DNA of 30,965 nt, taken from a virus. A program made the position numbers and the translations under genes. The stretch spans positions 1 to 30,965 of IMG/VR virus record IMGVR_UViG_3300043774_000446; one strand, given 5' to 3'. The notes beneath the pieces were generated by a model that saw nothing but the letters and a program-made list of their open reading frames with translations, searched no databases and was not told where the DNA came from. Shown piece after piece: positions 2,660 through 21,275 of this stretch (positions are counted from its first letter, which is position 1; the number at the start of each line of letters is the position of its first letter).

Positions 2660-3025
2660 TTACGCGGAGTAGAGTTCAGCATAAGTCTTGCCTTCCGGGT
2701 TATTGTACCAAGGTTCATCGTTACGCCATTCCGGGTGCAGATAGAATTTGCTTTCGTTGAGGTAGATGATAACATAACCGGCATCGTTAGCCTCGTCGAT
2801 GTTGAGATAGCCTTTCTGTACCAGGGAAGAGAGTACGCCTCGAATGGAACGAGTAGAAATACCGGTCCATTGTGCAAGGTCCTTGGCATCGATATCGGAG
2901 AATCCAGGTTCTGCGTAGAGTCCACCAATGAAGGCGGTCAGAACGGATTGTTCCATAGTGGTTAAGGAATGCTTTGATACCTCTTCAGCGATGAGGCTTT
3001 CTACGGTGAATGTGATGTTTTCCAT
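2660..3025 (-). CDS. Winged-helix transcription regulator
   Basis: A 121-residue protein with a winged helix-turn-helix read between about 20 and 90: a first helix (TTMEQSVLTAFIGGLY), then IDAKDLAQWTGISTRSIRGVLSSLVQKGYLNIDEA, which has the typical helix-turn-recognition-helix pattern (A-DLA-TGIS-RSIRGVL-L-KGYL), followed by a hydrophobic wing (YVIIYLNESKFYLHP). This suggests a DNA-binding regulator of the MarR or GntR style, but the exact family is not clear. The gene stands alone between two cassettes, so it has its own promoter and possibly terminator. Inverted repeats near its 3' end and in the next cassette are candidate targets, which is inference. Confidence 0.75.
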   Translation of the reverse strand: MENITFTVESLIAEEVSKHSLTTMEQSVLTAFIGGLYAEPGFSDIDAKDLAQWTGISTRSIRGVLSSLVQKGYLNIDEANDAGYVIIYLNESKFYLHPEWRNDEPWYNNPEGKTYAELYSA

Positions 3026-3039
3026 ATCAGTTAATTAAT

Positions 3040-3103
3040 TATAGTATAAAATTAACCAATAGTTTTCACATAAAAAAATCTAGAGGCATAAAGTTATTAA
3101 CAA
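3040..3103 (-). promoter_or_regulatory. Intergenic cassette 3
   Basis: The minus-strand block TTGGTTAATTTTATACTATA is at 3059-3040, 14 bases before the ATG of the winged-helix gene. The distal GTTAATAACTTT block is at 3103-3090. The middle holds ATTTTTTTATGTG but little pairing, so terminator ability is doubtful in this copy. Confidence 0.65.
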
Positions 3104-3125
3104 TTTTCATTCACTTATGAACAAT

Positions 3126-3350
3126 CTATCCCAGTTCCAGGCCATGCTCGGAGACGATTCGGCGTATCCGGTCTCGAAAGTCGCTATATGCATCGTGAAC
3201 CACCTCAGGCAGGTTCTCGTTGTACTTCACTTCCTTACGCAGTTCCTGGTCAATTTCCCAGACTACCGATTTCCACTTTCTACCGTTGATTGCGTCGTTG
3301 AGTTCTTCTGCCTCCTCGTGTATGTCGAATTCTAATGTTGCTTTTGCCAT
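3126..3350 (-). CDS. Small conserved-looking phage protein
   Basis: A 74-residue acidic protein beginning MAKATLEFDIHEEAEELNDA, then NGRKWKSVVWEIDQELRKEVKY. The pattern of an N-terminal strand, a helix, NG-KW, and a charged helix with LR--KY resembles a small protein seen in many tailed phages, as I remember them; its function is not known to me. I chose ATG at 3350, two bases after the upstream stop at 3352, over a longer frame from 3425 that overlaps the upstream gene. It ends the unit that begins with the RadA-HEXXH gene. Confidence 0.75.
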   Translation of the reverse strand: MAKATLEFDIHEEAEELNDAINGRKWKSVVWEIDQELRKEVKYNENLPEVVHDAYSDFRDRIRRIVSEHGLELG

Positions 3351-3351: not shown

Positions 3352-3759
3352 TTATGCGAATACTTGTTGTTTCCAAAATACGGTTTGTAGCACTGCGTCT
3401 GCGTCCCCCGCGTCATCGTTCTCATTGATGAAGTTTAAGATTGCCTGTGGATCGGTGTCCTCTACAAAGCGATGTACATCTTCCATCTTGATAGTGGAGT
3501 CCATCTCGCCTTCACCTTCGTGGTCTACAAAAGTGAGTGCGCCGCCCATGCGTAGGATTTGCATGAGTACGTCCTCATAGCAAACCGATTCCTTGGCACT
3601 ACTGCTGGATTTGAGTAGTTGGGCACGTGCTTCGTCATACCGCTTCTCATCCGCGGTGAGTTCAATACCATAGCCGTTCATGTAGCCGGTGCCAACTGCA
3701 TTACAGAGAGCACGATAGAAGATGTCTTCTGATTCTGAGTGTGATAGTGTTATTTCCAT
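3352..3759 (-). CDS. Acidic unknown protein
   Basis: A 135-residue protein. The first part (MEITLSHSESEDIFYRALCNAVG) is followed by GYGIELTADEKRYDEARAQLL and an acidic centre (MGGALTFVDHEGEGEMDSTI), ending with VLQTVFWKQQVFA. The segment around residues 55-85 (ESVCYEDVLMQILRMGGALTFVD) has the look of a conserved phage protein that I recall without a function. It overlaps the end of the GIY-YIG-like gene by 10 bases, so the two are probably co-translated. Confidence 0.78.
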   Translation of the reverse strand: MEITLSHSESEDIFYRALCNAVGTGYMNGYGIELTADEKRYDEARAQLLKSSSSAKESVCYEDVLMQILRMGGALTFVDHEGEGEMDSTIKMEDVHRFVEDTDPQAILNFINENDDAGDADAVLQTVFWKQQVFA

Positions 3760-4229
3760 ATAGTTGTATTTTGTTCTTCAATCCAGTGCATTGCGTAGTT
3801 TCCGCATTCATGTTTAATGATTGTTTCAATAATAGTGGTCAGGGTTGATATGTCAATCCTAAACCATTCAGTGCTTGCCGTCTTTCTGTCTGCCGAATTC
3901 ATCCCGTATTTGAGGTTTCTCTTCCATCGGGTTTCAACGGCCCGAGATTTTTGCAGCCCCGTTCCACGATCGTCTGTGCTGAAGCGGAAATACGCAAGCG
4001 GTTTGATTTGACGAGGGTTTCCGTTATTGAGCTTTGAAATGCGTCGTTCAATTGAAGGCGGGTATGGGCTGTTCTGATACTTCTTCCAAGTCCGCACTTT
4101 GTCATCCGTAACAGCATGGCTAACAATGCCTATTTTGAAGTAGGGTGAGCTTTCTGCTTCATAGCCTTCCTCTACAAAAATGTAGAGGAAGGAGTCACCG
4201 TTGATTGTATTTTTATCGTGTTCCATCAT
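3750..4229 (-). CDS. GIY-YIG-like (T5orf172-type) nuclease-fold protein
   Basis: The frame is 159-160 residues from ATG at 4229, which overlaps the stop of the RadA-HEXXH gene as TAATG. Visible features suit the divergent GIY-YIG family that includes T5orf172 and MUG113: SFLYIFVEEG (in place of GIY), YFKIGIVSH (the second strand with KIG), a run RRISKLNNGNPRQIKPLAYF, Glu in AVETRWKRNLKYG, and the end motif TEWFRID. Such proteins cut or bind DNA; some are nicking enzymes. The YIF and KIG strands and the EWF end are clear, while the exact catalytic Arg and Glu are my best guess. Its place directly behind a repair-type ATPase suggests a DNA-processing role, which is inference. Confidence 0.7.
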   Translation of the reverse strand: MMEHDKNTINGDSFLYIFVEEGYEAESSPYFKIGIVSHAVTDDKVRTWKKYQNSPYPPSIERRISKLNNGNPRQIKPLAYFRFSTDDRGTGLQKSRAVETRWKRNLKYGMNSADRKTASTEWFRIDISTLTTIIETIIKHECGNYAMHWIEEQNTTIWK

Positions 4230-5434
4230 TATGCGTTTGTAGGTGTTGACCATAACCAAGATTCCTCCACCGCGATGCGTGAAATTTCTTTCCACATTTT
4301 CTTGGTATGGTGTTGGTAACCTTTGAAGAGGTGTACCCATTCATGAAGGATAACCCAGAGTGCAGCCTCCTCCTTGTTCTTTACGTGAGTGTGAATGAAC
4401 GGACGCTCAGAGCGGTAGCCTACCCATTCCCAAGATTTGTCAGTTACCCGGTCGAAGAACTTCTTACCAAAGTTGATTTGACCGGTTTTGAAGTAGCAGC
4501 ATGCGCGTTTGCCTTCCCAGGTCAGCTTTACCTTGTCGGCAGAACCAATGAATGTGTGAGTAGCAAAACGGTCGGCGTGTTTGCGGTTAAGGTATGAGAC
4601 GAGAGTTTCCGCGGTGTCCTTGAACTTTTCCCAGTTGAGGTTTTCACCTGAAGAGCTTCCCTTATACTCCATTACCATGTCACGGACCTCATCGGGAGTT
4701 TGGCTGTCCACCAGGTTCCACCATTCGGAACCGATAAAGACGCCATCAGCCGTGATACGGAAAGAATAGCTTTCCATGTTTCCACCAAAGCGGTTCTTAC
4801 TCATGGAAAAGAGACGCTCCCTGATTTCCTGGTCGAACCATACTGTCATGTGAGAGTCAACCTCGTGTTTAAGGAAGGAAGGACCTGAGTAGTTTCCACC
4901 TTTGTCATTGTGACCAATGAGCATGATAGGCGTGAAAGATTTCTTAGCCCATTTGGTAAAGCGTTCTACCAAAACGATTTGACCACGGGTTGGACCGTCG
5001 GACATTTTAGAAGCCATTTTTTGGAGAGAGTCGACGATTACCATTGATGGGTTTAGACTTTCTAACGCTTCAAATAACATATCAATTCCACCCGGTTGAG
5101 CGTGGAATTCGTGAGTGCTGACGAGCAAGCTGTCGAAGCCAGGTATTTTCTTGGCTTGCAGTTTCAATTGGAAGTCAGACATCTCGTAGGAAAGGAAAAC
5201 TACCGGACGCTTATCGCGTTCAGCTACTCGGGAACCAACCACCGCGCAGAGCGTGGTCTTACCAGATCCTGGGTTACCAGTTACGAGTACAACTTGTGAG
5301 GGAACCAATCCACCAATTTCCGAGAGGACGCTGTCCAACTCAGGAGAGTCGGTTTTGATGGTTTGAAAGAGTTTCTCTGGTACCTCGATGTCAGATACCT
5401 TTTTGAAAGTTTGCTTTGCGGCGGTTAATTCCAT
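4229..5434 (-). CDS. RadA/Sms-like RecA-family ATPase fused to an HEXXH metalloprotease-like domain
   Basis: The protein has 401 residues. The N-terminal two-thirds are a RecA-family ATPase: Walker A GNPGSGKTT (53-61), LSYEMSD after the second strand (81-87), Walker B MVIVDS (131-136), and SKNRFGG (212-218), which is the KNRFG motif characteristic of RadA/Sms. The RadA zinc finger is absent at the N-terminus, and no Lon-like domain follows. Instead, after a linker at about 255-265, a C-terminal domain (about 266-395) carries ALWVILHEWVHLFKGYQHH with HEWVH at 364-368 and a candidate third zinc ligand at His375. This resembles SprT or WLM-type zinc proteases. RadA acts in recombination and branch migration; SprT/SPRTN-type proteases digest DNA-bound proteins. 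A combined role in clearing proteins from DNA is inference. It is the first gene after cassette 4 and is followed by a GIY-YIG-like gene. Confidence 0.85.
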   Translation of the reverse strand: MELTAAKQTFKKVSDIEVPEKLFQTIKTDSPELDSVLSEIGGLVPSQVVLVTGNPGSGKTTLCAVVGSRVAERDKRPVVFLSYEMSDFQLKLQAKKIPGFDSLLVSTHEFHAQPGGIDMLFEALESLNPSMVIVDSLQKMASKMSDGPTRGQIVLVERFTKWAKKSFTPIMLIGHNDKGGNYSGPSFLKHEVDSHMTVWFDQEIRERLFSMSKNRFGGNMESYSFRITADGVFIGSEWWNLVDSQTPDEVRDMVMEYKGSSSGENLNWEKFKDTAETLVSYLNRKHADRFATHTFIGSADKVKLTWEGKRACCYFKTGQINFGKKFFDRVTDKSWEWVGYRSERPFIHTHVKNKEEAALWVILHEWVHLFKGYQHHTKKMWKEISRIAVEESWLWSTPTNA

Positions 5435-5451
5435 AGGTTATTATTTAATTT

Positions 5452-5514
5452 GATAGTATAAAATTAACCAAAAGATTTCACATAAAAAAATGTTTTTGCA
5501 AAAAGTTATTAACA
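5452..5514 (-). promoter_or_regulatory. Intergenic cassette 4
   Basis: The minus-strand proximal block is TTGGTTAATTTTATACTATC (5471-5452), 17 bases before the RadA-HEXXH start. The distal GTTAATAACTTT lies at 5514-5502. Between them ACAT and ATGT arms flank a run of T, giving a weak hairpin. A promoter, with doubtful termination. Confidence 0.65.
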
Positions 5515-5519
5515 TTTTT

Positions 5520-5735
5520 TCATGAGCAAACCGTGTAATTGTTTGTGGCTTCCAAGAAAAGCCGAGCTGCCTGTTTTTGTTTTGCCTCGTCCTCCGACCA
5601 CATTCCATCCATAAGGAGTTCACCTCGTTGGAAGTTTCTGTCAAGCAACCATTCAGTTCGGTCAATGTATTCCTCCACTGGGATGCCAAGCAGCTCAGCA
5701 GCTGCTTGGTCCATCATATCATATAGTCCTAACAT
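5520..5735 (-). CDS. Small acidic unknown protein
   Basis: A 71-residue protein, MLGLYDMMDQAAAELLGIPV and onward, helical and acidic. Its ATG overlaps the stop codon of the nicotinamide phosphoribosyltransferase gene (TAATG at 5735), so it is the second and last gene of that unit and likely translationally coupled to it. The segment AAAELLGIPVEEYIDR looks like a small helical domain. No family is recognised. Co-expression with the NAD gene makes a related role possible but unproven. Confidence 0.75.
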   Translation of the reverse strand: MLGLYDMMDQAAAELLGIPVEEYIDRTEWLLDRNFQRGELLMDGMWSEDEAKQKQAARLFLEATNNYTVCS

Positions 5736-7258
5736 TAGATAGCAGATTGTACTCGTTGACGAATGGTTGCTAAATCCACTGTGTTGTGGAATTCACCATT
5801 CATATAGATCATTTGCAAAGAACCGGCGGATTCACCAGCCCATGTCTGTCTGTCTACCAGTTTGTAACCGCCTTCGCCGGTTGTAACTTGCAGCAGACCA
5901 GTTGCAGATTTCTTGGTACCATCATCTGTGATAGGATCTTTGAAGATTTCTTTGCCTTCTACAGCAAAGGCCGGACTACCGGATTCAGCCTTATGTGTTA
6001 TTTCCACGTAGGTAGCTTTCATCGCAAATCCAAAAGTATCGCGAGTGTTGTATTGGTAAGTGAATGAACCGATACCAAGAACCACATTGGTAGATGCGAA
6101 TCCTTTAGATTCCAAACGGCGGCAGATTTCTTCAGCACGGTCAATTGTAATGCTGTCTCCGTAGATTGCTCCGATGTGCGGATCCAATACTTTGTAGCCC
6201 TGTTCATTTACGGTTCCACCGAATACATCCCAAAGCAATTCAATAACTCCTTTGTATTTTGGATGTGAAGTATCTAAATCTGCATTTTCAACAACATCTC
6301 TGTAATCACGAGATATAACTTTTTCTCCACAAAGAATATCTACCGGATCTCCACTATCAGGACGGATAACCAACTTGCCATCACGAGCCAAGATTTCTTC
6401 TTTCAAGGTAACCACGTGTTCGGTACAAACTTTCCATAGATCCCATGTGTCAGATACTACTGAGAGTATTCCTTTTGGATATGTGTTAAGCAATCTGCGG
6501 AAAGTATCAGTTTCATCCTCTTTACCGCCTGCGCACATTACCGAGTGCTCGGTTGCAGGAACCGAACCGGCCACAAATCCTTCAGCACCGTAAAACTTAC
6601 GAGCACCGTAGATTGCAGGTAATGAGTCAGTACCAGAGAATGATGTGAGGTGACCTAAGCCAGAAGAGATTACCGCCTCGGCAGAGTCCATACCACGCAT
6701 TGAGAAGTCATGTCCTTGCCAGTCGATGAACCATGCATTTGCAGGGTCGGTCTTTTTCATCCACTTGGTAAGAACCTTGCGGTATGCTTGAGCGATAGTA
6801 GCAGAAGTCATTGGCTTCCATAGCAAGTTGGAAAGGATTGTTTCCAAGTAGTTGGTTAACCAGTAGAAATCTGGGTGTGTGTTGTAGATTGTAAGAACCG
6901 GAACTTTGATTGGAACCATAGTTCCTTCAGGAAGAGCTTTAACAGCGATTGGCAAGTAGCCGAGATCGTGCAACTTTTCAAAGTGGGTAACATCATAGTC
7001 AGTTCCCAAGTACATTGAGAGTTCTTCCTTCATCTGTCCACAGACCAAGTCCTTGGGTTGCGAGAAGAAGTCGCGTTGGAACGCTTCGTGAATCTGTTGC
7101 ATAACCATCTGTTGGCCGAACGAAACGACCTGGTCGCAACCTTTCGGCGCGTACTTATTGGAACGAGGGGTGAAGTTTGAGTAAACTTTTGTGGTTCCCT
7201 TTGGGTACTGTTGGTGGTGGCCAGTCTTGTAGCCGTCTGTGAGAAAGAGTGGATTCAT
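5735..7258 (-). CDS. nadV: Nicotinamide phosphoribosyltransferase-like enzyme (NAMPT/NadV, or Namat)
   Basis: A 507-residue enzyme of the NAMPT family, full length for it. Motifs seen: LTDGYKTGHHQQYP at 6-19, NFTPRSNKYAP at 28-38, GHDFSMRGMDS with SSGLGHLTSFSGTDS at 198-212, SVPATEHSV with the catalytic-type His238, SVVSDTWDLWK at 266-276, and LVIRPDSGDP at 296-305, which binds the phosphoribosyl group. The classical reaction joins nicotinamide to PRPP to give NMN. In phage NARP1 systems a relative (Namat) joins nicotinamide to ADP-ribose pyrophosphate to give NAD+ directly. The nearest upstream unit starts with a PRPP-synthetase-like gene and no NMN adenylyltransferase is seen in the window, which keeps both readings open. 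It follows its own cassette 5. Confidence 0.93.
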   Translation of the reverse strand: MNPLFLTDGYKTGHHQQYPKGTTKVYSNFTPRSNKYAPKGCDQVVSFGQQMVMQQIHEAFQRDFFSQPKDLVCGQMKEELSMYLGTDYDVTHFEKLHDLGYLPIAVKALPEGTMVPIKVPVLTIYNTHPDFYWLTNYLETILSNLLWKPMTSATIAQAYRKVLTKWMKKTDPANAWFIDWQGHDFSMRGMDSAEAVISSGLGHLTSFSGTDSLPAIYGARKFYGAEGFVAGSVPATEHSVMCAGGKEDETDTFRRLLNTYPKGILSVVSDTWDLWKVCTEHVVTLKEEILARDGKLVIRPDSGDPVDILCGEKVISRDYRDVVENADLDTSHPKYKGVIELLWDVFGGTVNEQGYKVLDPHIGAIYGDSITIDRAEEICRRLESKGFASTNVVLGIGSFTYQYNTRDTFGFAMKATYVEITHKAESGSPAFAVEGKEIFKDPITDDGTKKSATGLLQVTTGEGGYKLVDRQTWAGESAGSLQMIYMNGEFHNTVDLATIRQRVQSAI

Positions 7259-7273
7259 TTTTTTTATTTTTTG

Positions 7274-7336
7274 TATAGTATAAAATTAACCAAAAAGATC
7301 CACATTAGAAAACTTTTTGGCATAAAGTTATTAACA
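7274..7336 (-). promoter_or_regulatory. Intergenic cassette 5
   Basis: The minus-strand proximal block TTGGTTAATTTTATACTATA (7293-7274) is followed by an A-rich leader of about 15 bases and the ATG of the nicotinamide phosphoribosyltransferase gene at 7258. The distal GTTAATAACTTT is at 7336-7324. A hairpin lies between the blocks and is listed separately. Confidence 0.68.
7290..7320 (-). terminator. Hairpin in cassette 5, probable terminator
   Basis: CCAAAAAG (7290-7297) pairs perfectly with CTTTTTGG (7313-7320) around a 15-base loop. On the minus strand it follows the stop of the deoxyribosyltransferase-like gene (7342) and leads into TTAATTTTAT. The stem is AT-rich and the loop long, so termination may be partial. 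Its 3' arm is part of the TTGG of the proximal promoter block. Confidence 0.45.
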
Positions 7337-7341
7337 TTTTT

Positions 7342-7839
7342 CTACCACTTGTAGACGCGGTCCTCTTTTACAACCTTTGTGCGGAGAGCACCGATGGCTT
7401 CTTCCATTGTGTTGAACAGCGGAATGTTGTGACGAGTGCAGACGATTTCCACATTGCCTTTCCGCCAAAAACCATCCGGGCAGCAGACGATCATCTTGTG
7501 ATCATCGCAATGCATGCCTAATTCCAGGAGAGAAATCGGGCTTTGTGTTCCTGGAGAGAAGTACATGAAGATGATGTCGCATTCTTCCAACTTGTTCATT
7601 TCCCAATTTACCTGATGGTTGAACTGCGGATTGGTTTGCTCCTGTTTCCAGGAAGAGTCCCACTCGTCTCGGCGAGGGTTGAAAAAGGTGACGCGTTCGT
7701 TCTCAAAACGCTTAGGTAGTTCGACCTGCCAGTCCTCAGCGGCACCCATCTCGATGGAGCCGGCCAGGAACACCGTCACTGTATTGAGCTCGGGTGCTTG
7801 GTCTTCGGTTGTTGGTTTGATGATTTTCATGTCATGCAA
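7342..7839 (-). CDS. Nucleoside 2-deoxyribosyltransferase-like protein
   Basis: A 165-residue protein, or 162 residues from the second ATG at 7830. It shows the family pattern: VTVFLAGSIEMG near residue 22, FFNPRRDEWDSSW, NHQVNWEMNKLEECDIIFMYFSPGTQSPISLLELGMH, in which the Glu of LLELG is the expected catalytic residue, then IVCCPDGFW. Enzymes of this fold exchange bases between nucleosides or cleave N-glycosidic bonds of nucleotides. In the present setting it could act on nucleotide salvage or on NAD-related nucleotides; the substrate cannot be read from the sequence. It overlaps the upstream gene by a few bases and ends the unit that starts with the PRPP-synthetase-like gene. Confidence 0.8.
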   Translation of the reverse strand: MHDMKIIKPTTEDQAPELNTVTVFLAGSIEMGAAEDWQVELPKRFENERVTFFNPRRDEWDSSWKQEQTNPQFNHQVNWEMNKLEECDIIFMYFSPGTQSPISLLELGMHCDDHKMIVCCPDGFWRKGNVEIVCTRHNIPLFNTMEEAIGALRTKVVKEDRVYKW

Positions 7840-8356
7840 GTTTGAAGTTTCTTAGGTAGTCACGGAGGAAGATGATAGTGTTAGCGTCTCTGCCAAATTG
7901 AGTTTTCCAGCTGATGTAGCTGGGAAGCTTTGAGAAGTCTTTTCCTGCCTGCTTATAGGCTTCCAGCTCTTCATAAGGAATCGTGTAGTCAGGAAACTCT
8001 TCCCTGTCAAACACTCGGTCATCGACGATGAAGACGAATGCAGTCAGCTGGTCGCCCAAGTCAGGCTCCCGAAAAGAGGCGCACAGTACGCCCGCGTCGG
8101 TAAGTTCTATTAAGGACTTGTTCAGAGTGCCAATGCGCTCTGGGTTGGAGTTTGTAGTGCCTCCATTGAGGATGATGAAAGTCTTGTCGCATTTGCGCCA
8201 TGCATCAAAGGCAGCTCGCTCAGCAGCTTTTACCTCTGTGCTAAGAGCCATCATCAAGTTGTTGTACTCTTGTACTGCGTGACCAAACTGGATTCCCTGT
8301 TGGATTGGGCTGAGGTTGTAGGGGACGAACCCATACATTCGATATGTTCTATTCAT
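7832..8356 (-). CDS. PTH2-like (peptidyl-tRNA hydrolase 2 fold) protein
   Basis: A 174-residue protein. The N-terminal part YGFVPYNLSPIQQGIQFGHAVQEY resembles the PTH2 beginning, in which a strand is followed by S-GQ-A-Q--HA. Later segments fit the same fold: CDKTFIILNGG (strand), LNKSLIELTDAGVLCASFREPDLGDQLTAFVFIVDD, which resembles the PTH2 stretch with L-LA---GL---IRDAG-T-I-PGT-TVLAIGP. PTH2 enzymes free tRNA from peptidyl-tRNA on stalled ribosomes. I remember phage proteins of this type but have no direct evidence of activity. The C-terminal 50 residues look like an added region. It overlaps the genes on both sides by a few bases. Confidence 0.55.
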   Translation of the reverse strand: MNRTYRMYGFVPYNLSPIQQGIQFGHAVQEYNNLMMALSTEVKAAERAAFDAWRKCDKTFIILNGGTTNSNPERIGTLNKSLIELTDAGVLCASFREPDLGDQLTAFVFIVDDRVFDREEFPDYTIPYEELEAYKQAGKDFSKLPSYISWKTQFGRDANTIIFLRDYLRNFKLA

Positions 8357-8630
8357 TTATGGCGGTTTTTAGTCTGCGGATTTCTTCAATTACACCATCA
8401 CCGAGTTCGATCTTTGACATGAGCGTCAAGTCCATGATCTGTGATTCGTAAAGTTGGATAAGTTGGTCTCTTGCATCAAGATCGGCGTTGACCTGATTCT
8501 CTGGATAGTTTCTTTCTAACCAATCGGTAGCTGCTTGGTGGTTGACTTCACCGCCTTCTCCGCCAATTTGCATTACGCCAAAACGGTCGATGGCTTCGTG
8601 TACAATGTTTCTAAAATGTTCGTATTTCAT
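8349..8630 (-). CDS. Unknown 93-residue protein
   Basis: Starts MKYEHFRNIVHEAIDRFGVM. I chose ATG at 8630 over a longer frame from 8738 because the extension would run into the upstream gene and is rich in unlikely residues. The middle (NHQAATDWLERNYPENQVNADLDARDQLIQLYESQIMDL) is helical and the end is a charged helix. No family is recognised. It overlaps the PTH2-like gene by 8 bases. Confidence 0.75.
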   Translation of the reverse strand: MKYEHFRNIVHEAIDRFGVMQIGGEGGEVNHQAATDWLERNYPENQVNADLDARDQLIQLYESQIMDLTLMSKIELGDGVIEEIRRLKTAINE

Positions 8631-8653
8631 GGTTTGTAGTTTGTGATTGTGAA

Positions 8654-8938
8654 TTAGAGGTCTCTCCAATCTGATGAATGCGTCGACACGTTCAAAGAAA
8701 AAGATAGCCAGCAACCTTCTCTTTGATCGCTGGACCATTTAACATCAGCCCACCCTGCTTTAATGTACCTCTCTTTTAGGATCTGGTAGTGCGAATATGA
8801 CATGCCATTTGGTACATCTACGTTAATCGATGATTTTGGAGCAACTTTTTTGTTCGCCAATATTCCGTCGATCTTGTCTTCAAAGAAATCCACTTCAGCC
8901 ATGAAGTTTTCATTTAATTGATTTGGTCCTATTGCCAT
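8654..8938 (-). CDS. Unknown 94-residue protein
   Basis: Starts MAIGPNQLNENFMAEVDFFED, two bases after the macro domain stop. It contains a helix (ILANKKV), then SYSHYQILKERYIKAGWADVKWSSDQREG, which looks like a helix followed by two strands, and ends in SLNVSTHSSDWRDL. The order helix-A-GW--V-W suggests a small alpha/beta fold that is common among phage proteins. No function is known to me. Confidence 0.75.
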   Translation of the reverse strand: MAIGPNQLNENFMAEVDFFEDKIDGILANKKVAPKSSINVDVPNGMSYSHYQILKERYIKAGWADVKWSSDQREGCWLSFSLNVSTHSSDWRDL

Positions 8939-8940
8939 GT

Positions 8941-9456
8941 TTATGGTTTGTAGTTTACGATTGTGACTTGACAGTCTTTGAGTTCAACATTGATGATATG
9001 TTCTATGCGATTCCAGTTCCCGCCCGCAAGACCAGCACCGATCTTAGGCATTCCGATGTGTTTACCACCAAACTCAATGTTTAACTTGCGCATACAAATT
9101 GTGAATGCCTCATAATCGAATGGGCGAAGATCACCATCCGTGTGGTTTCTTCCGTAATTGAATTGTGTATACGCGTTGACCACAGTTAGCTGGGGCTCAT
9201 TGCGATTATTCTTGAGATCTGATAGAGAAAAGATTGTCTTTTCTCCTAGAACAAAAGTTTGATAGTCAATGTTGCCTAGCTTATTTACATCAGAACCCCA
9301 GAGTTCCATTCCAAATCTGTCACAGCCAAAAGCCTCTGCCATCTGTGGAGCAATTCCTGCACCCATTTTGCTATGGCAATTACAGCCGTGTACTATCACA
9401 TCAAACTTTGCTTCCTTCGCAAGTTTGATTAAGTCTCCGTCGATGTAGTTGATCAT
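8941..9456 (-). CDS. Macro domain protein (ADP-ribose or ADP-ribose-phosphate processing)
   Basis: A 171-residue single macro domain. Visible: GDLI at 7-10, VIVHGCNCHSKMGAGIAPQM (20-39) that forms the ADP-ribose pocket, LTVVNAYTQFNYG at 90-102, and GMPKIGAGLAGGNW at 135-148 forming the diphosphate loop. The HGCN, MGAGIA and P-IGAGLAGGNW pattern is closest in my memory to the Poa1/TARG1-type group, which removes the phosphate from ADP-ribose-1''-phosphate or hydrolyses ADP-ribose from proteins. It lies in the same unit as the PRPP-synthetase-like enzyme and near the nicotinamide phosphoribosyltransferase, which points to ADP-ribose or NAD handling; RNA-repair by-products are another possible substrate. 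Its ATG overlaps the preceding stop as ATGA. Confidence 0.88.
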   Translation of the reverse strand: MINYIDGDLIKLAKEAKFDVIVHGCNCHSKMGAGIAPQMAEAFGCDRFGMELWGSDVNKLGNIDYQTFVLGEKTIFSLSDLKNNRNEPQLTVVNAYTQFNYGRNHTDGDLRPFDYEAFTICMRKLNIEFGGKHIGMPKIGAGLAGGNWNRIEHIINVELKDCQVTIVNYKP

Positions 9457-9641
9457 GGTCTTTCAATGCTGGTTATTGCTGTTCTATCGATTGGGTAGCA
9501 CGCCACCAATTCGCCATTTGCGTGGAACGCATAGTAGCCTTTTGAAGTACTATTGTTTGTGGTCGTGGTAAAACTATCTGCCTTTAATTCTTCTCTCCAG
9601 GAGGTATGACCGCCGATGATTAGTAGGTGGTATGTGTTCAT
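9453..9641 (-). CDS. Small unknown protein
   Basis: A 62-residue protein starting MNTYHLLIIGGHTSW, with GYYAFHANGELVACYPIDRT further on, so probably a small beta-rich domain. ATG at 9641 follows the stop of the PRPP-synthetase-like gene by one base; an earlier ATG at 9653 would overlap that gene. It lies between the PRPP-synthetase-like and macro domain genes and so may be functionally tied to them. No family is recognised. Confidence 0.72.
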   Translation of the reverse strand: MNTYHLLIIGGHTSWREELKADSFTTTTNNSTSKGYYAFHANGELVACYPIDRTAITSIERP

Positions 9642-9642
9642 T

Positions 9643-10497
9643 TTAGAATACATTGAATTGAGTTACTTGTGAATTGTCTACATCCTTTACAGAGTTTGTG
9701 CAAAAGATTTGAGGGAAATGGTTGTTGAGTTCTCCAAAGCCAGCGGAAAAGATTCCGTGAGTGACTACCAGGTAGACCTTAGCGGTAGGGCGGCTGTCGT
9801 GAATCGCTTTGGCAAGTTCCACGAAAGTCCGACCTCCGTCGCAGATGTCGTCGACGATGACATATTTCAAGTCGTTGTGTTGGTCCAGCGTGGGAATCTC
9901 TGTACGAAGTATCTTTCCAGTCTTAATGTCGCGCACCTTGTTAGCGGTGATGATCTTTTCAATCTTAAACTTCTGAGCCACATCGAAGATTTTCTTGTAG
10001 GCGCCTGCGTCGGGTGATACCAGGACGACGCGGTCTTGTGCACCGTCCTTGTTGTCGATGGATTCCAAAGCACCCTTGACGATCCTGTGATTGTCGATCT
10101 TTTCATAATTGTCGAGGCAGGCTTCCAACACGTCAGAGTGTGGATCCAGTACAATCACAGCATCGAACTTTTGAGCATTGATGATGGGGCAGATTACCTG
10201 CTTTAAGTAGTTGACATCGCCAGGTGTAAAGCGGCGGTCAGAACGAGCACCCACGAAGTACGGCGTGTACAGGAAGACTTGAGAAGCTCCGTTGTTTCGA
10301 AGTGCCTGGTTTGCACAGATGATAAGTTCCAAGTCACGGAAATCATTGAGACGGCTGTAGATCTTTACAGCGACGCTTTGCAAAAATCCAGGTTGATCCA
10401 GTGTAATGGATTGCTGACCATCGGGAAACCGATTGATTGTGAATGGAATCTCTGAATTTTCTGGGTAAGCCAGATTGAGCATTGATAAGTTTGCCAT
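9643..10497 (-). CDS. prs: Ribose-phosphate pyrophosphokinase-like enzyme (PRPP synthetase or ADP-ribose pyrophosphate synthetase)
   Basis: A 284-residue protein of the PRPP synthetase family, a little shorter than the typical enzyme of about 310. Seen: RFPDGQQSI at 23-31, LYTPYFVGARSDRRF at 76-90 in place of the IPYFGYARQDRK loop that contacts ATP, VLDPHSD at 117-122, VLVSPDAGAYKK at 158-169, and YVIVDDICDGGRTF at 212-225, which is the PRPP-binding loop. The classical reaction moves pyrophosphate from ATP to ribose-5-phosphate. Phage relatives (Adps) instead act on ADP-ribose. I chose ATG at 10497 because the promoter block lies at 10513-10532, inside a longer frame from 10542. First gene of its unit. 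Confidence 0.88.
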   Translation of the reverse strand: MANLSMLNLAYPENSEIPFTINRFPDGQQSITLDQPGFLQSVAVKIYSRLNDFRDLELIICANQALRNNGASQVFLYTPYFVGARSDRRFTPGDVNYLKQVICPIINAQKFDAVIVLDPHSDVLEACLDNYEKIDNHRIVKGALESIDNKDGAQDRVVLVSPDAGAYKKIFDVAQKFKIEKIITANKVRDIKTGKILRTEIPTLDQHNDLKYVIVDDICDGGRTFVELAKAIHDSRPTAKVYLVVTHGIFSAGFGELNNHFPQIFCTNSVKDVDNSQVTQFNVF

Positions 10498-10512
10498 GTT
10501 ATTGTTTTTTTG

Positions 10513-10576
10513 TATAGTATAAAAATAACCAAAGAGATTCAAACTAGGAAATGTTTTGCCTAAAAGTTATTAACAA
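10513..10576 (-). promoter_or_regulatory. Intergenic cassette 6
   Basis: The minus-strand proximal block is TTGGTTATTTTTATACTATA (10532-10513), with one change from the consensus. It precedes ATG 10497 after an A-rich leader. The distal GTTAATAACTTT is at 10576-10563. The middle keeps GGCAAAACATTT but has poor pairing. Its position decides the start of the PRPP-synthetase-like gene. Confidence 0.65.
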
Positions 10577-11070
10577 TCTTTGGACAATTGCTTCTCAATG
10601 TAGTCTGCAATAATGATAACCTCATCGTCACTAATCCACCAATGCTGTACATCTCCATTGACGGTTATTGAGAAGTCGCCATCGGTTGGATCCAGCACAA
10701 CCTCATTGAACTCGCGGATTGGATTGTGCTTAGCCCGGTTGCTTTCATCGATTCCCTCAAACACCTTGCGCATGGTTTCGCTCATTTTTGTAGAGCGGTC
10801 CATTTCCACGTAGTTGTAATACTTCGTCTTTTCCCCGGTCGGACCATGCGTAATGGTTACTTCAAGTCCGCTCCAGTCGGTGACGCCTTTCCAGTTCTTC
10901 AAGATGTAAGTCTTGGCAATGTTAGCAATATGTTCCATTGCAACCATATGTTTACGGTACTCTTCCATGTAGTCTTTTTCCACATAGAAGATCGATTGCT
11001 TGTAGCCTTCTTCGTACTCTTCCTCTGTCATAAAAACAGGAGAGAAGATTGTTCCGGGTATGTCTTTCAT
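10570..11070 (-). CDS. Unknown 166-residue protein
   Basis: Starts MKDIPGTIFSPVFMTEEEYEE. ATG at 11070 lies 7 bases after the upstream stop at 11078; a longer frame from 11118 overlaps that gene. The N-terminal half is helical and charged (YKQSIFYVEKDYMEEYRKHM, then AMEHIANIAKTYILKNW). The C-terminal half has strands (DFSITVNGDVQHWWISDDEVIIIADYI). No family is recognised. It is the last gene of the unit that starts at 13106. Confidence 0.78.
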   Translation of the reverse strand: MKDIPGTIFSPVFMTEEEYEEGYKQSIFYVEKDYMEEYRKHMVAMEHIANIAKTYILKNWKGVTDWSGLEVTITHGPTGEKTKYYNYVEMDRSTKMSETMRKVFEGIDESNRAKHNPIREFNEVVLDPTDGDFSITVNGDVQHWWISDDEVIIIADYIEKQLSKDC

Positions 11071-11077
11071 TATATTG

Positions 11078-11323
11078 TTATTTGTGCCATTGGTCGTACT
11101 CAATATCCCATGCAGCATCGTACTTTGCTTGGATGTCTGTTGGTAAGTGTGGATAGATCTCTTTTTGGAAGTACTTATTCATAGACCAACCAAACTTAAG
11201 TTCGGATAGATTTGTTTCCGGGTATTCACAGTCTTCTCCGCCTTGACAGATTGTTGGGCTACAACATCCAGTTACTCCACAGGATTCGCATTTTTTACAG
11301 TATGGAGAGTAGTCTTCGCTCAT
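11078..11323 (-). CDS. Cysteine-rich small protein, probable metal binder
   Basis: An 81-residue protein with seven cysteines in the first 32 residues (9, 12, 15, 20, 21, 26, 32; pattern CKKCESC, CC, C, C). Such spacing is typical of zinc-binding knuckles. The rest is a helical segment ending in AAWDIEYDQWHK. No family is recognised. It overlaps the preceding gene by 4 bases (ATGA). Confidence 0.78.
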   Translation of the reverse strand: MSEDYSPYCKKCESCGVTGCCSPTICQGGEDCEYPETNLSELKFGWSMNKYFQKEIYPHLPTDIQAKYDAAWDIEYDQWHK

Positions 11324-11619
11324 ATAAGTTCTCCTTTTTCTATTTCTTCTTTGCGGTTAAGCAATTCAAGCTTAAGCGTAATTTGCTTTCGCCACCAAGA
11401 TTTGGAAAGATCCAAGTTTTCTGTGTCTGCATAGATCCGGAAAACTTCCTTGGGTTGCTGACTTTCAATGGTGGGGCCAAAGAGTAACCACCGTTTTCTG
11501 CTGACCGTTTGCGTGCCTTCGTAAAAGACAGTGACCGGGTCAGATCCATAGTCCTCGCCGTAACGTACCCAGAGAGTTTCGTATTGCAGTGTTCTTCCTT
11601 GTACCTCAATTGTTTTCAT
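11320..11619 (-). CDS. Unknown 99-residue protein
   Basis: Starts MKTIEVQGRTLQYETLWVRYG at ATG 11619, one base after the upstream stop at 11621; a longer frame from 11679 lies inside the upstream gene. The first two-thirds are beta-rich (VTVFYEGTQTVSRKRWLLFG) and the end is a charged helix (ITLKLELLNRKEEIEKGELI). No family is recognised. It overlaps the start of the cysteine-rich gene. Confidence 0.76.
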   Translation of the reverse strand: MKTIEVQGRTLQYETLWVRYGEDYGSDPVTVFYEGTQTVSRKRWLLFGPTIESQQPKEVFRIYADTENLDLSKSWWRKQITLKLELLNRKEEIEKGELI

Positions 11620-11620
11620 G

Positions 11621-11908
11621 TTATTTGATTGCGTGTGAAGGATCGTAATCTTTGTTTTCCTCGATTGTGTAAGTACCACAGAGAACTACCGTTTCCAATT
11701 CGTCTCCGCCGCAGTCGCAATGCTTCTGGAAGGTGATGCAACCGTCCTGCGTTTTGGTGTATTCTGTTGTGTAGTAGTGCTGGCTGCCGCCACTCACTAT
11801 CTCGTATTTGTATTTCTTTTTCTGGTTATCAACCAAAAAAATGATTAGTGTTGCTACCAATGAAGATAGCAACACTACTGAAATGATTGTGAGAAGAGTG
11901 GTTCTCAT
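11621..11908 (-). CDS. Small membrane-anchored protein
   Basis: A 95-residue protein with one N-terminal membrane segment at about 4-26 (LLTIISVVLLSSLVATLIIFLV), followed by a basic patch NQKKKYKY and a soluble domain with Cys at HCDCGGDE and VLCGTY. Its ATG overlaps the stop of the SPFH gene (TAATG at 11908). The soluble part has the look of a small phage protein with KTQDGCITF-K-C. Membrane placement next to the SPFH protein suggests the two may act together, which is inference. Confidence 0.75.
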   Translation of the reverse strand: MRTTLLTIISVVLLSSLVATLIIFLVDNQKKKYKYEIVSGGSQHYYTTEYTKTQDGCITFQKHCDCGGDELETVVLCGTYTIEENKDYDPSHAIK

Positions 11909-12852
11909 TACTTAATGTTTAGAAGAGTTCCGCTGTTGCCAGCAACTGTAGTAGGCATTTTACCATCCCACCTTGACCACTTAACAAATTCGATGTATTG
12001 CGGAGTAAGTTCTCTCTGTTTAATTTTCATAGACATTGCTTCAGCATTGGCGCCAATAAGTAACTTGGCAGAATCGCCTCGTGCAATTGCCATTTTCTCT
12101 TGAGCCTCGGCCTCAGCAACTAGTTTTCGTTGCATTGCTGCTTGTGCTTCCTGAACTGCCTTGGTTTTAGATTCAATAGCAGCCTGTAGTGATTGCGGCG
12201 GAATGATGTTAGTACGTAATTGGCTTACCTCAAACCATTTTGCAAGGCGCTTATTACATTCTACAACAATGGCAGCCTCGAACTGTTCGCGTTGATTAAA
12301 GATTGCATCCACTTCCCACTTATTAGCTACGTCATTAACCGATGATACGATGGCATTCTTGAGCCAGCCCTGTTCAATGTCTTTGATTTCCAGGCGAAGG
12401 TTGACGAACATGTCCCCAATTGCATCAGGCTTAAGTGAGTAGTTAAAGCTTGGTTTGATTGTAGCAGAGAAACCACCCTTAGTGATTACCACCTGGTCAG
12501 AGTACTCGATGTGTTGTTGGTATGTGGGGAATTCTAACATTTGTTCGAACCATGAATTGTAGAGAACCCAACCAGTTTTGTATTGATAGTTGGAAACTCC
12601 TCGTTCATTCCCGGTCAAATTAACCTTGATGCCTTTGTGACCTGCGTCGACACGCTCAAGCTTATAGGGCTGGATGAGTGTCAGCAAAAGGCCGCCAACA
12701 AAAACGATGATTGGCTTGATTATCCATGTGGATGAGATTTTTGAGTCTCCCCATTTGTCTGGTTTGGCTGCAGATTTAGCAGCGTTGAAACCGCGCAGTG
12801 CCATCAAGACTGCAGTTACGATGGTTGCTAGTAATAGCGTGATTGTAATCAT
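11908..12852 (-). CDS. SPFH/Band 7 (prohibitin-like) membrane protein
   Basis: A 314-residue protein. An N-terminal hydrophobic segment (2-20) and a second at about 44-62 (WIIKPIIVFVGGLLLTLI) anchor it. The SPFH domain follows: VDAGHKGIKVNLTGNERGV, WVLYNSWFEQMLEFPTYQQHIEYSDQVVITKGGFSATI, then INDVANKW-type segments and IIPPQSLQAAIESKTKAVQEAQAAMQRKLVAEAEAQ, a long Ala/Glu-rich coiled coil typical of prohibitins and HflK/HflC, with the usual AR-D-A-LLIGANAEA. Such proteins form ring-like membrane scaffolds and control proteases such as FtsH. In a phage it may stabilise the membrane or guard phage proteins against FtsH; this is inference. It sits in a unit with three other membrane or metal-binding genes. 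Confidence 0.88.
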   Translation of the reverse strand: MITITLLLATIVTAVLMALRGFNAAKSAAKPDKWGDSKISSTWIIKPIIVFVGGLLLTLIQPYKLERVDAGHKGIKVNLTGNERGVSNYQYKTGWVLYNSWFEQMLEFPTYQQHIEYSDQVVITKGGFSATIKPSFNYSLKPDAIGDMFVNLRLEIKDIEQGWLKNAIVSSVNDVANKWEVDAIFNQREQFEAAIVVECNKRLAKWFEVSQLRTNIIPPQSLQAAIESKTKAVQEAQAAMQRKLVAEAEAQEKMAIARGDSAKLLIGANAEAMSMKIKQRELTPQYIEFVKWSRWDGKMPTTVAGNSGTLLNIK

Positions 12853-13762: not shown

Positions 13763-14019
13763 AGTTCTTTTACTTTAGTGTATTCTTCAGGAAACCTATC
13801 ACCCTCCCAGAGGATAGGCTTGCTTAATGCTTCTTTGATGCGGTCCGCCGTCCAGCGTAAGCCTTCCAGACTATCTCCTCCTATCGTGATAGGATTAGCG
13901 GTGTAGCCGTCTGGCTTGCCGTCTTTATCGTAGTAGACTTCATAGACTTCAAAATACATCTCGGTAGTTCCGTCTACATATTTGTGTTCGCTTGCTAGCA
14001 CTCGGTGATTCCAGCTCAT
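13759..14019 (-). CDS. Unknown 86-residue protein
   Basis: Starts MSWNHRVLASEHKYVDGTTEMYFEVYEVYYDKDGKP, that is, strand, turn and strand with E-YF-V-EVYYD-DGKPDGYT, then a helix (SLEGLRWTADRIKEALSKP) and a basic end. The W-HRV-A pattern and the DGKPDGYT turn are common to small phage proteins of unknown role that I have seen. It overlaps its neighbours on both sides as ATGA. Confidence 0.78.
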   Translation of the reverse strand: MSWNHRVLASEHKYVDGTTEMYFEVYEVYYDKDGKPDGYTANPITIGGDSLEGLRWTADRIKEALSKPILWEGDRFPEEYTKVKEL

Positions 14020-14753
14020 AATTCAAAAGTTGGTTTAAGCCACAGTCCTCTATCAAACACCAAGTCCATGAAACCTGGTATGGATTTGCTGTCGACTAGG
14101 TTTAACAATCTTAAAGTTGCAACGGTATCGTGCTTCATCATCTTGAAGAGTTCCTCTCGGATTCTTTCCGCGCTTACCGTGGTCCTGAGTTTGTCCAGGA
14201 TTTCAGGTTGCATCATGGCTAACCAGATTTCATCGGAGATACTGAAGCCTTTGGTGATTTTGAAACGCAATGCTCTCATGATACGAAGCGGGTCGTCCAT
14301 CATAGTCTGCTTGGCAGGTAGTGGAGTGCGGAGCAATCTATTTGCCAAGTCCTTTTGTCCTTCGAACAAGTCGATGAGATCCCCATCTTCAGAAACTGCC
14401 AATGCGTTTAGGGTAAAGTCCCTGCGAACCAAGTCATCCTCCAGAGTTCCGAGAGCCAGGATTGGACGGCGGGTTCCTTCCATGTAGCCAATCTCCTTGC
14501 GTGCCATTACAAAGTCTGCTACCAGTCCTTCATTCGGATCGTTCTTGGGAAACTTTGCACGGATGGTAAAGCATTCCGGAGTAGAGAGGAAGATTTGAAA
14601 GCCACGGTCAGACATCCACTTGTACATGGAGGCAAATCCGTCTTCAACGCTTAGCCTCAAGTCGTCCACCACAAAGGTGAAGTCGATGTCTTTGGAGTCG
14701 ATGCCCAAGATTTCGTCCCTGACGCATCCTCCTACTTTGAAAAGTTGTGGCAT
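14016..14753 (-). CDS. cca: tRNA nucleotidyltransferase (CCA-adding type) without HD domain
   Basis: A 245-residue class II nucleotidyltransferase. Visible: LFKVGGCVRDEILG (motif A start, residues 4-17), KDIDFTFVV with the metal-binding DxD at 22-24, RRDFTLNALAVSEDGDLIDLFEGQKDL (motif B/C), and DDPLRIMRALRFKITKGF (motif D region). These match CCA-adding enzymes and poly(A) polymerases. The bacterial enzyme is about 400 residues and often ends in an HD phosphohydrolase; this one stops after the neck region. It may repair the CCA end of tRNAs damaged by host defence, in step with the RNA-repair genes at 19019-21013, which include a separate HD protein. It is the first gene after cassette 7. Confidence 0.9.
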   Translation of the reverse strand: MPQLFKVGGCVRDEILGIDSKDIDFTFVVDDLRLSVEDGFASMYKWMSDRGFQIFLSTPECFTIRAKFPKNDPNEGLVADFVMARKEIGYMEGTRRPILALGTLEDDLVRRDFTLNALAVSEDGDLIDLFEGQKDLANRLLRTPLPAKQTMMDDPLRIMRALRFKITKGFSISDEIWLAMMQPEILDKLRTTVSAERIREELFKMMKHDTVATLRLLNLVDSKSIPGFMDLVFDRGLWLKPTFEL

Positions 14754-14767
14754 ATTATTTTTAATTT

Positions 14768-14831
14768 GTTAGTATAAAATTAACCAAAAAGGCCGAAAGA
14801 AAAAAATCTTTCGGCCTAAAGTTATTAACAA
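14768..14831 (-). promoter_or_regulatory. Intergenic cassette 7
   Basis: The minus-strand proximal block reads TTGGTTAATTTTATACTAAC (14787-14768), 15 bases before the nucleotidyltransferase ATG. The distal GTTAATAACTTT is at 14831-14818. The centre holds the strongest hairpin of all copies, listed separately. Confidence 0.7.
14790..14817 (-). terminator. Strong hairpin in cassette 7
   Basis: AGGCCGAAAG (14790-14799) and CTTTCGGCCT (14808-14817) pair perfectly over 10 bases with an 8-base loop. On the minus strand the hairpin is followed by TTTTT, giving a standard rho-independent terminator for the bS21 unit, placed immediately before the promoter block of the next unit. Confidence 0.8.
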
Positions 14832-14854
14832 TTTTTAATAGGTTATGAACAAAC

Positions 14855-16875: not shown

Positions 16876-17154
16876 TTAGAGAGATTTAAGTGCTTTAATA
16901 CGATTGGCTAAGGTAGTGGCCTGGCTAGCTAATTCAGCGTTACGAGGGTTTTTGAATGCAGCAAAAAGCATGTCGATGTTTCCTGAAGCAGCGCCGCCGA
17001 TATTGGCATCGATCCATTTACAGAATTCGAGTAGTACTTGAGCATCGCGAGCATATAGTTTTTCTTCTACAAAATAGTAACCTTGAGTAAAAGAACCTAA
17101 GGTCCCAGCCCCGTGAAGAAGTAATGCTTTAGCGTAGTTCGGTAGTTTGTTCAT
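16876..17154 (-). CDS. Small unknown helical protein
   Basis: A 92-residue helical protein, MNKLPNYAKALLLHGAGTLG onward, with LLEFCKWIDANIGGAASGNI and a C-terminal part FAAFKNPRNAELASQATTLANRIKALKSL. No family is recognised. It is the first gene after cassette 8, and its ATG lies 16 bases past the promoter block. Confidence 0.76.
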   Translation of the reverse strand: MNKLPNYAKALLLHGAGTLGSFTQGYYFVEEKLYARDAQVLLEFCKWIDANIGGAASGNIDMLFAAFKNPRNAELASQATTLANRIKALKSL

Positions 17155-17169
17155 ATTTGATTAATTAAT

Positions 17170-17233
17170 TATAGTATAAAATTAACCAAAAGTTTTCAAA
17201 GTAGAAAACATTTTGGCAAAAAGTTATTAACAA
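17170..17233 (-). promoter_or_regulatory. Intergenic cassette 8
   Basis: The minus-strand proximal block TTGGTTAATTTTATACTATA is at 17189-17170; the distal GTTAATAACTTT at 17233-17220. A long hairpin lies between, listed separately. It serves the unit that ends with bS21. Confidence 0.7.
17186..17216 (-). terminator. Hairpin in cassette 8, probable terminator
   Basis: CCAAAAGTTTTC (17186-17197) pairs with GAAAAC-A-TTTTGG (17204-17216) over 12 base pairs with a single bulged base and a 6-base loop. On the minus strand it follows the gene ending at 17236 and leads into TTAATTTTAT. Although AT-rich, it is the longest stem among the cassettes. Confidence 0.6.
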
Positions 17234-17235
17234 TT

Positions 17236-17496
17236 TTACTCTTTTACAATTCCTAAGTTAGCCATCATTTTAGCGCCTACTCTACGGATTGCAGTTCTGG
17301 CGTCGTGTATTTCTTGCATCTCAGCGCGAGTCAGTTCAACGATGCCGATTTGACCATAGACCTTTGATTTTAGTTCTTCCGATATCTTTGCCATATCGAA
17401 TACTACTTCATTTGCAGATGAACTAATTGCTGATGGATTGGCCCACCCTGCAGAGTTGTGCAAGATGTAAATAGGATATGTCTTTGTGTTTGCCAT
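17236..17496 (-). CDS. Small unknown protein, single-gene unit
   Basis: An 86-residue protein, MANTKTYPIYILHNSAGWANPSAI onward, then a helical C-terminal part with RAEMQEIHDARTAIRRVGAK. It stands alone between two cassettes, so it has its own promoter and terminator; this isolation implies separate regulation or high dosage. No family is recognised. Confidence 0.76.
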   Translation of the reverse strand: MANTKTYPIYILHNSAGWANPSAISSSANEVVFDMAKISEELKSKVYGQIGIVELTRAEMQEIHDARTAIRRVGAKMMANLGIVKE

Positions 17497-17511
17497 ATTT
17501 GATTAATTAAT

Positions 17512-17575
17512 TATAGTATAAAAATAACCAATAGTTTCCACATAGAAAAATGTTTTGGCAAAAAGTTATTAACAA
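17512..17575 (-). promoter_or_regulatory. Intergenic cassette 9
   Basis: The minus-strand proximal block is TTGGTTATTTTTATACTATA (17531-17512), the same variant as cassette 6. The distal GTTAATAACTTT is at 17575-17562. CCAA/TTGG and ACAT/ATGT arms allow a weak hairpin between the blocks. It serves the single gene ending at 17236 and follows the glycosyltransferase unit. Confidence 0.65.
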
Positions 17576-17583
17576 TTTGAAAA

Positions 17584-18294
17584 CTATTTCCAGTACCCGT
17601 GATCCTGGCGCATGTATTCTTCGCCTTTCCAGGCAGACATAATCATCAGTTTGAACATGCCAAAGTACCCAGTCTTCTTGAAACGTCGGTCGTCTACCGT
17701 TATGAAATGAGTGGAAACTTTACAGTCTTCCGGAGCGTACTTTCCGGATAGAACCCAATCTTCTCCATGTATCAAGCTTTCATCCCACCCGCCGCGTTTG
17801 CGTATTGCCAATGTACGTGTACCAAAAAATGAGCCGACTGCAAATGGTCGACGCTTAGAAATGATGATGTTAACCTTGTTAAAAAGCCAATATGCAAACG
17901 AACTCATAAGTCCGGAATCGCTACGAAGTTTTGCTCGTACCAATCGATAAGTTCCCAAGTCGTACCAAACACTATAGAGTTGTAGCGGACTTGTGAGCCT
18001 AACATCTGCATCAATAAATAGAACACAGTCAGTGCGAACCTCTTCCAATCCAGCATTTCTGCCACGAGTTACTGAGCCTCCTTCTATTACTTCGATATTA
18101 AGACGATCTTGATATGAGTTGCAAATTTCTACGGTGCGGTCGGTTGATCCTCCGTCGGCAACTATGATGTGTACACCTTTTGAATGATGCTGCTTGGTAA
18201 GATCTTCAAGAAGTCCTCCTATGTAGTTTTCCTCGTTAAAGGCCGGAATTACTACGCTTATGTATTTTTTCAGCTCCACTTTTTCCATCATCAT
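17584..18294 (-). CDS. Family 2 glycosyltransferase
   Basis: From ATG 18294 the product has about 236 residues. It begins MMMEKVELKKYISVVIPAFN, which is the GT2 first strand, followed by EENYIGGLLEDLTKQ, HIIVADGGSTDRTVEIC (nucleotide-binding DGGSTD), GRNAGLEEVRTDCVLFIDADVRL (the DxD motif in DAD), and LIHGEDWVLSGKYAP (the ED-type catalytic region). These features fit a GT-A transferase using a sugar nucleotide. A longer frame from 18387 is less likely, as it lies within the phosphoesterase gene and the A-rich stretch before 18294 suits initiation. The gene overlaps the LpxH-like gene by about 59 bases. A role in modifying host surface glycans or phage DNA is possible; neither is shown. Confidence 0.85.
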   Translation of the reverse strand: MMMEKVELKKYISVVIPAFNEENYIGGLLEDLTKQHHSKGVHIIVADGGSTDRTVEICNSYQDRLNIEVIEGGSVTRGRNAGLEEVRTDCVLFIDADVRLTSPLQLYSVWYDLGTYRLVRAKLRSDSGLMSSFAYWLFNKVNIIISKRRPFAVGSFFGTRTLAIRKRGGWDESLIHGEDWVLSGKYAPEDCKVSTHFITVDDRRFKKTGYFGMFKLMIMSAWKGEEYMRQDHGYWK

Positions 18295-21260: not shown

Positions 21261-21275
21261 ATTAGTTAATTGTTT

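Follow-up and report, generated by a model that had tools for sequence, protein, structure and literature searches.

RadA/Sms of bacteria is a DNA motor (PMC5512693) whose cores move along DNA by means of the lysine and the arginine of the KNRFG motif (PMC5512693, PMC11612176), a motif unique to this protein (Marie et al., PMC5512693). The Lon-like domain of pneumococcal RadA is devoid of the Ser-Lys dyad and acts as a hexamer scaffold and DNA channel, and RadA hexamers are held together mainly by this Lon-like ring (PMC5512693). SPRTN and Wss1, in turn, are proteases activated by DNA and degrade proteins located on it (PMC7782752). The virus record analyzed here (30,965 bases in full, hereafter the window) encodes a protein in which a RadA-like ATPase is fused to a domain best described as SprT-like (Table 1). 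Both domain families are known; their combination, as judged from the sequences, appears to be new, and full-text literature searches retrieved no earlier report of a RadA/SprT-like fusion, in line with the initial annotation, to which the arrangement was unfamiliar.

The N-terminal part of the fusion protein resembles bacterial RadA in its RecA-fold core, its Walker A and B motifs, its GHxxKxG...GPxxLxHxVD stretch and its KNRFG motif, but lacks the C4 zinc finger and the Lon-like domain of RadA and carries Met and Gln where RadA has E125 and R133. Its assignment is based on TIGR00416 (RadA), matched with an E-value of 9.4e-29 versus 5.6e-11 for DnaB as the next family, on the solved RadA structures 5lkm and 8rxc (E approximately 1e-18) and on a Pfam KaiC/ATPase match to the core (E 2.7e-13). 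Bacterial RadA proteins share approximately 30% identity with the fusion protein over residues 18-232, in an alignment that takes in Walker A, Walker B, the RadA-type stretch GHNDKGGNYSGPSFLKHEVD and KNRFG; the core also carries GHNDKGG. By analogy with pneumococcal RadA, Lys213 could play the role of a piston and Arg215 that of an arginine finger. Walker A, Walker B and KNRFG had been recognized in the initial annotation, as had the lack of zinc finger and Lon-like domain, and both observations hold: there is no Cys before residue 63, the reading frame is open for just one codon upstream of the ATG (two codons in the relative described below), and the RadA match ends at residue 232, with a TIGR00416 score of 100 bits against a cut-off of 403. 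Since Met85 and Gln93 stand in place of RadA E125 and R133 (residue numbers by alignment), the ATPase chemistry may be weakened, and since the Lon-like ring that mainly holds RadA hexamers together is absent, hexamer assembly by RadA's route cannot be assumed.

Table 1. Positions in the window of the fusion gene, its predicted domains and motifs, and the intergenic repeat copies
Feature	Positions	Strand	Basis
Whole gene, RadA-like ATPase/SprT-like zincin fusion, 401 aa plus stop (read from 5434 down to 4229)	4229..5434	-	ORF reading; intact in L001 and L002, 89% protein identity
RadA/Sms-type RecA-fold ATPase core, residues 17-232	4739..5386	-	RadA structures 5lkm, 8rxc; TIGR00416; Pfam KaiC/ATPase
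Walker A GNPGSGKTT, residues 53-61	5252..5278	-	Sequence and RadA alignment
Walker B MVIVD, residues 131-135	5030..5044	-	Sequence and RadA alignment
KNRFG RadA signature, residues 213-217	4784..4798	-	RadA alignment; motif described in PMC5512693
Linker, residues 233-262, where RadA runs on into the Lon-like domain	4649..4738	-	RadA match stops at residue 232
Predicted SprT-like zincin domain, residues 263-401 (139 residues)	4232..4648	-	Model, fold matches, profile-profile probability 96 and shuffle controls
Lineage-specific insertion, residues 328-351 (24 residues), between strands and HExxH helix	4382..4453	-	Missing from SprT-like relatives in alignment
HEWVH, residues 364-368: predicted zinc ligands H364 and H368, predicted catalytic E365	4331..4345	-	Motif and relatives' alignment
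H376, predicted third zinc ligand	4307..4309	-	Aligns with the His after HExxHxxxGxxx in PF10263 members
Intergenic repeat copy (approximately 100 nt) directly upstream of the fusion gene	5434..5536	.	Repeat families D1, D2
Intergenic repeat copies, part 1	2072-2155, 2577-2660, 3022-3124, 5434-5536, 7256-7358, 10495-10597		
Intergenic repeat copies, part 2	14752-14835, 17152-17254, 17494-17596, 21258-21360, 27529-27631		

The same fusion is present in two further IMG/VR records (L001 and L002), which encode an identical protein and were therefore counted as one homologue, so that the carriers are two related uncultured phages only. In the pairwise comparison of the window with L001, synonymous sites are near saturation (pS approximately 0.68), and the C-terminal domain has a dN/dS of approximately 0.04, while residues 339-388, including HExxH, accumulated approximately 20 synonymous changes versus one non-synonymous change (omega approximately 0.005), ratios that at such a high dS signify strong constraint and not exact values. 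Of all parts measured, the segment around the predicted ligands and the catalytic Glu is under the strongest constraint, and the two His and the Glu of HEWVH are kept in this one full-length homologue (89% identity). With synonymous sites near saturation and the C-terminal domain constrained, the fusion is neither an assembly error nor a decaying tail. The comparison also argues strongly for intense purifying selection on the active-site segment.

HEWVH is found at the residues where it had been placed initially. The longer pattern HExVHx7Hx4W occurs once in the window and in none of 100 shuffles, and is therefore not due to chance. The third zinc ligand, on the other hand, for which His375 had been given as a candidate, is probably His376: the aligned SprT-like relatives of this spacing all have His at the latter position (the pattern used to fetch them demands it), and the position of His375 varies. 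His376 matches the third-ligand position of SprT, and Glu383, Glu being the gluzincin criterion, lies in the model in the helix after the HExxH helix.

Direct searches with the C-terminal domain against Pfam, PHROGs, NCBIfam and PDB sequences gave nothing above threshold, the top sequence match being a weak one to proabylysin (E 0.037); Pfam had no Peptidase_M78 (IrrE/ImmA) match for it, and the curated cut-off of PF10263 was reached neither by the domain nor by the window record searched with the family model. Stand-alone phage relatives were fetched with the spaced pattern HExxHxxxGxxxHxxxxW, and three of the proteins obtained scored above the PF10263 cut-off of 25.6 bits (47.9, 46.7 and 37.7). 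The C-terminal domain aligns with PF10263-positive phage proteins free of gaps over HExxHxxxGxxxHxxxxW; the helix and strands ahead of this motif align with gaps. Because these relatives were picked by the motif, its residues are invariant in the set by construction, and homology was therefore tested outside the motif, by shuffle controls. The hhalign comparison of the domain (query profile of two sequences) with the SprT-like set had a probability of 96 and a score of 55.8, versus 43.6 ± 2.0 (maximum 51.9 among 100) when the columns before residue 355 were shuffled and the motif was kept; the part before the motif, by itself, scored 24.1 versus 11.2 ± 2.3 when shuffled, and none of 100 shuffles reached 24.1. 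A plain HMM of this SprT-like set did no better than motif-keeping shuffles, so it is from the profile-profile comparison and the fold that the SprT homology draws its support. Taken at the sequence level, the profile-profile result supports homology of the domain to SprT-like proteins beyond the motif. Members of that family (PF10263, phage SprT-like proteins, eukaryotic SPRTN) and the domain have in common a helix, short strands, the HExxH helix and the His after it, but the fusion protein bears an ATPase and the 24-residue insertion, has no Cys zinc-finger tail and falls below direct detection by Pfam. Phage proteins of the L004/L024 type, which are stand-alone and carry HEWxH, were considered as the closest relatives and rejected (motif-keeping shuffles scored equally and the hhalign probability was 34); one protein of this type reaches a SprT-like E-value of 1.2e-4. 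Stand-alone phage proteins with HE(W/F)(A/S)H, in which the motif HDA.WGVAY is invariant, form a family (L058-L086, position approximately 3001-3320) that occurs in several large phages, one member being weakly SprT-like by score.

An AlphaFold model of the C-terminal domain built from two sequences was poor (pLDDT 42) and was discarded, whereas a 13-sequence alignment gave a model with pLDDT 78.9 and pTM 0.80, not fully independent of the SprT idea as the alignment contained SprT-like proteins. It starts with a long helix, followed by three short strands and by helices; then come the HExxH helix and a helix after His376. The best ten Foldseek matches in the PDB (E 0.005-0.19) were minigluzincins (selecase, proabylysin and projannalysin; probability 0.54-1.0, TM up to 0.60 by target) and one YbeY-family protein (1oz9, a weak match, probability 0.41); IrrE (3dti) was a very weak match (probability 0.07), and human SPRTN was absent among the 50 PDB matches listed. 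Among the BFVD viral models, many of the annotated matches were SprT-like, SprT-family or WLM proteins (E 0.03 and weaker), including those of the T4-type Aeromonas phage 65.2, Vibrio phage nt-1 and Yersinia phage TG1. Fold matches were modest overall, with E-values of 0.005 or higher in PDB and BFVD. Minigluzincins are thus the closest solved folds to the model, but they are stand-alone proteins of approximately 100 aa and their third ligand is Glu, unlike the predicted His376 of the fusion protein. A zincin-like fold is well supported by the model, so that the structure prediction suggested initially as a check did not reveal a non-zincin setting for HEWVH, and the SprT- or WLM-like setting proposed at that time is consistent with the profile-profile result, the model and the fold matches: SprT-like is the description that best accounts for this zincin-like domain. 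That it belongs to SprT rather than to a neighboring zincin family is likely, short of a formal family assignment.

The same domain pair, which the initial annotation had proposed to look for in other phages, was found in the one second phage and, within the sensitivity of the searches, nowhere else in IMG/VR, 50,697 phage records, plasmids and the genome collection. For IMG/VR and the genome collection these were pattern scans, which detect only close relatives or exact motifs. Full-length and minimal-RadA queries yielded no relatives in cellular genomes, in a scan that reaches close matches only, and neither did the C-terminal domain in plasmids; the fusion is likely rare. Scanning for GHNDKGG as a route to relatives returned methyltransferases and noise. 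The RadA matches in the phage collection had approximately 30% identity, and the two that were read completely (L137 and L138) are conventional RadA proteins, zinc finger and Lon-like domain included, and probably reflect bacterial DNA within those records. The exception was the large phage LR756508, which encodes a minimal RadA-like protein (L136, 367 aa, acidic C-terminus) plus a separate SprT-like protein of 207 aa. The N-terminal motif DxExP(D/E)x6KT, first seen in L136, was used to find further minimal RadA-like ATPases, and together with a protein from a RadA family search of LR756504 there are at least five unfused phage representatives: besides L136, two with winged-helix-like C-termini (L146, 299 aa; L150, 328 aa) and two with no C-terminal module (L160, 254 aa; L192 of LR756504, 218 aa, in which KNRFG is kept). 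Like the fusion protein, they are devoid of zinc finger and Lon-like domain, and L136, L146, L150 and L160 also share with it the N-terminal motif and KNR(F/Y/R)G, the Walker A lysine and KNR.G being kept throughout the alignment of these four with the window protein; unlike the fusion protein, none carries a zincin domain. Given minimal RadA-like ATPases with such varied C-termini, the SprT-like part has the look of a module that was swapped in, and the parsimonious reading of these sequences would be that phages have a family of minimal RadA motors whose C-terminal modules can be exchanged, the SprT-like one among them. HExxH genes lie shortly upstream of two of the minimal RadA-like genes (10996-11646 at L150 and 6953-7426 at L146, both on the minus strand; HEYAH and HEFRH...EKDA), and a recurrent pairing of such ATPases with metallopeptidases is possible. 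This adjacency is suggestive but concerns two of three loci only, and the proteins are not SprT, so it was not retained.

The two-domain protein, the RadA signature, the predicted zincin-like fold, the SprT-type similarity and the purifying selection on the active site are directly supported. The reading that we prefer, with a probability of approximately 50%, is that the gene product is a DNA-targeted metalloprotease on a RadA-type motor, which clears proteins from phage DNA. The minimal ATPase, without zinc finger or Lon-like ring, would bind and move on single-stranded or branched phage DNA and deliver the protease to forks, joint molecules or recombination intermediates, where the C-terminal domain would cut proteins that block, or are stuck or crosslinked to, the phage DNA; the ATP-driven movement, the binding of zinc, the proteolytic activity and a substrate in the form of roadblocks or crosslinks are all suggested by analogy. 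More tentatively, and doubtful as yet, the protein may be a processive phage motor with its own metalloprotease, coupling RadA-type translocation or branch migration directly to the proteolysis of DNA-bound or crosslinked proteins; should that hold, such a motor-protease could, just as tentatively, be a single-polypeptide counterpart in bacterial viruses of the division of labor between helicase and SPRTN at eukaryotic forks. RadA normally bears a protease-dead Lon-like domain, and here a different protease-type domain, with catalytic residues, is found under strong selection. If active, the protein would join a recombination motor and the removal of protein crosslinks or roadblocks in one polypeptide, would provide a small bacterial-virus model for DNA-coupled proteolysis, known mainly from eukaryotic SPRTN and Wss1, and would suggest a role for many stand-alone phage SprT-like proteins lacking an assigned function.

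It is unlikely, in our estimate, that the zincin domain is instead purely structural, replacing the dead Lon-like domain for DNA binding or oligomerization in a branch-migration helicase without protease activity. The domain occupies exactly the place of the Lon-like domain, which in pneumococcal RadA has lost its dyad and remains a scaffold and DNA channel (PMC5512693), and the unfused relatives bear other small C-terminal modules, such as the winged-helix-like ones of L146 and L150; nevertheless, a scaffold role would not require HExxH to stay intact, and here none of the three predicted ligands is missing, nor is the catalytic Glu, and the segment around them is the most constrained of those measured. 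Distinctly unlikely is a sensor of DNA status, in which the RadA-like part would sense single-stranded DNA and the protease would cut one regulator or host protein, as in IrrE/DdrO and ImmA/ImmR. SprT-like, IrrE and minigluzincin domains share a fold, and an upstream repeat of its own, probably a promoter, would fit a regulated early gene, but the match to IrrE is very weak and no conserved repressor gene adjoins the fusion gene, whose downstream neighbors differ between the window and L001/L002. It is improbable that a host defense or nucleoid protein on phage DNA is the target rather than replication roadblocks: the NAD-salvage type set in the same window (NAMPT, PRPP-synthetase-like) suggests counter-defense functions, but there is no direct link between them and the fusion, and PADLOC gave weak P-loop matches only. 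That HExxH lies outside any zincin, in a domain of another fold, e.g., with YbeY-like RNase chemistry, or in no enzyme at all, is very improbable, for although 1oz9 was matched weakly, the two-sequence model was poor and the SprT similarity in the plain HMM is carried by the motif, the profile-profile control finds signal outside the motif, the 13-sequence model is confident with zincins as its best matches, YbeY-like and other such families gave no Pfam or NCBIfam match, and YbeY has Gly at the position of the catalytic Glu.

The phage with the fusion is of the broad T4 type, as assessed from the gene content of the relative G001 and from a terminase comparison, in which the closest terminases were those of very large uncultured phages, Sphingomonas phage PAU, Tenacibaculum phage PTm1 and Prevotella phage Lak-B5. 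Besides a terminase, G001 has genes judged by eye to encode a DnaB-like helicase fragment, gp46/47-type exonuclease subunits and a clamp-loader subunit, and in view of this helicase fragment and these replication genes the replicative helicase is probably a protein other than the RadA-like fusion. G001, an incomplete record, showed no RecA match above the cut-off. The intergenic repeat copies of the window (approximately 85-103 nt, 60-87% identical, core TATAGTATAAAATTAACCAA) lie mostly just upstream of genes, and the repeat probably serves the phage as a promoter element. A T5orf172/MUG113 domain gene (3750-4229, minus strand) follows the fusion gene directly on its downstream side and is not at that place in L001 and L002. 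Elsewhere on the minus strand, NAMPT-like, nucleoside 2-deoxyribosyltransferase-like, weak macro-domain and PRPP-synthetase-like genes are close together (5735-10542) and resemble an NAD-salvage set; a band-7/SPFH protein (11908-12852) and a poly(A)-polymerase/CCA-type nucleotidyltransferase head domain (14016-14753) are also encoded, and a T4 Rnl1-like RNA ligase gene (19019-20080) adjoins a small P-loop kinase-like gene (20077-20478), with which it possibly forms an RNA-repair pair.
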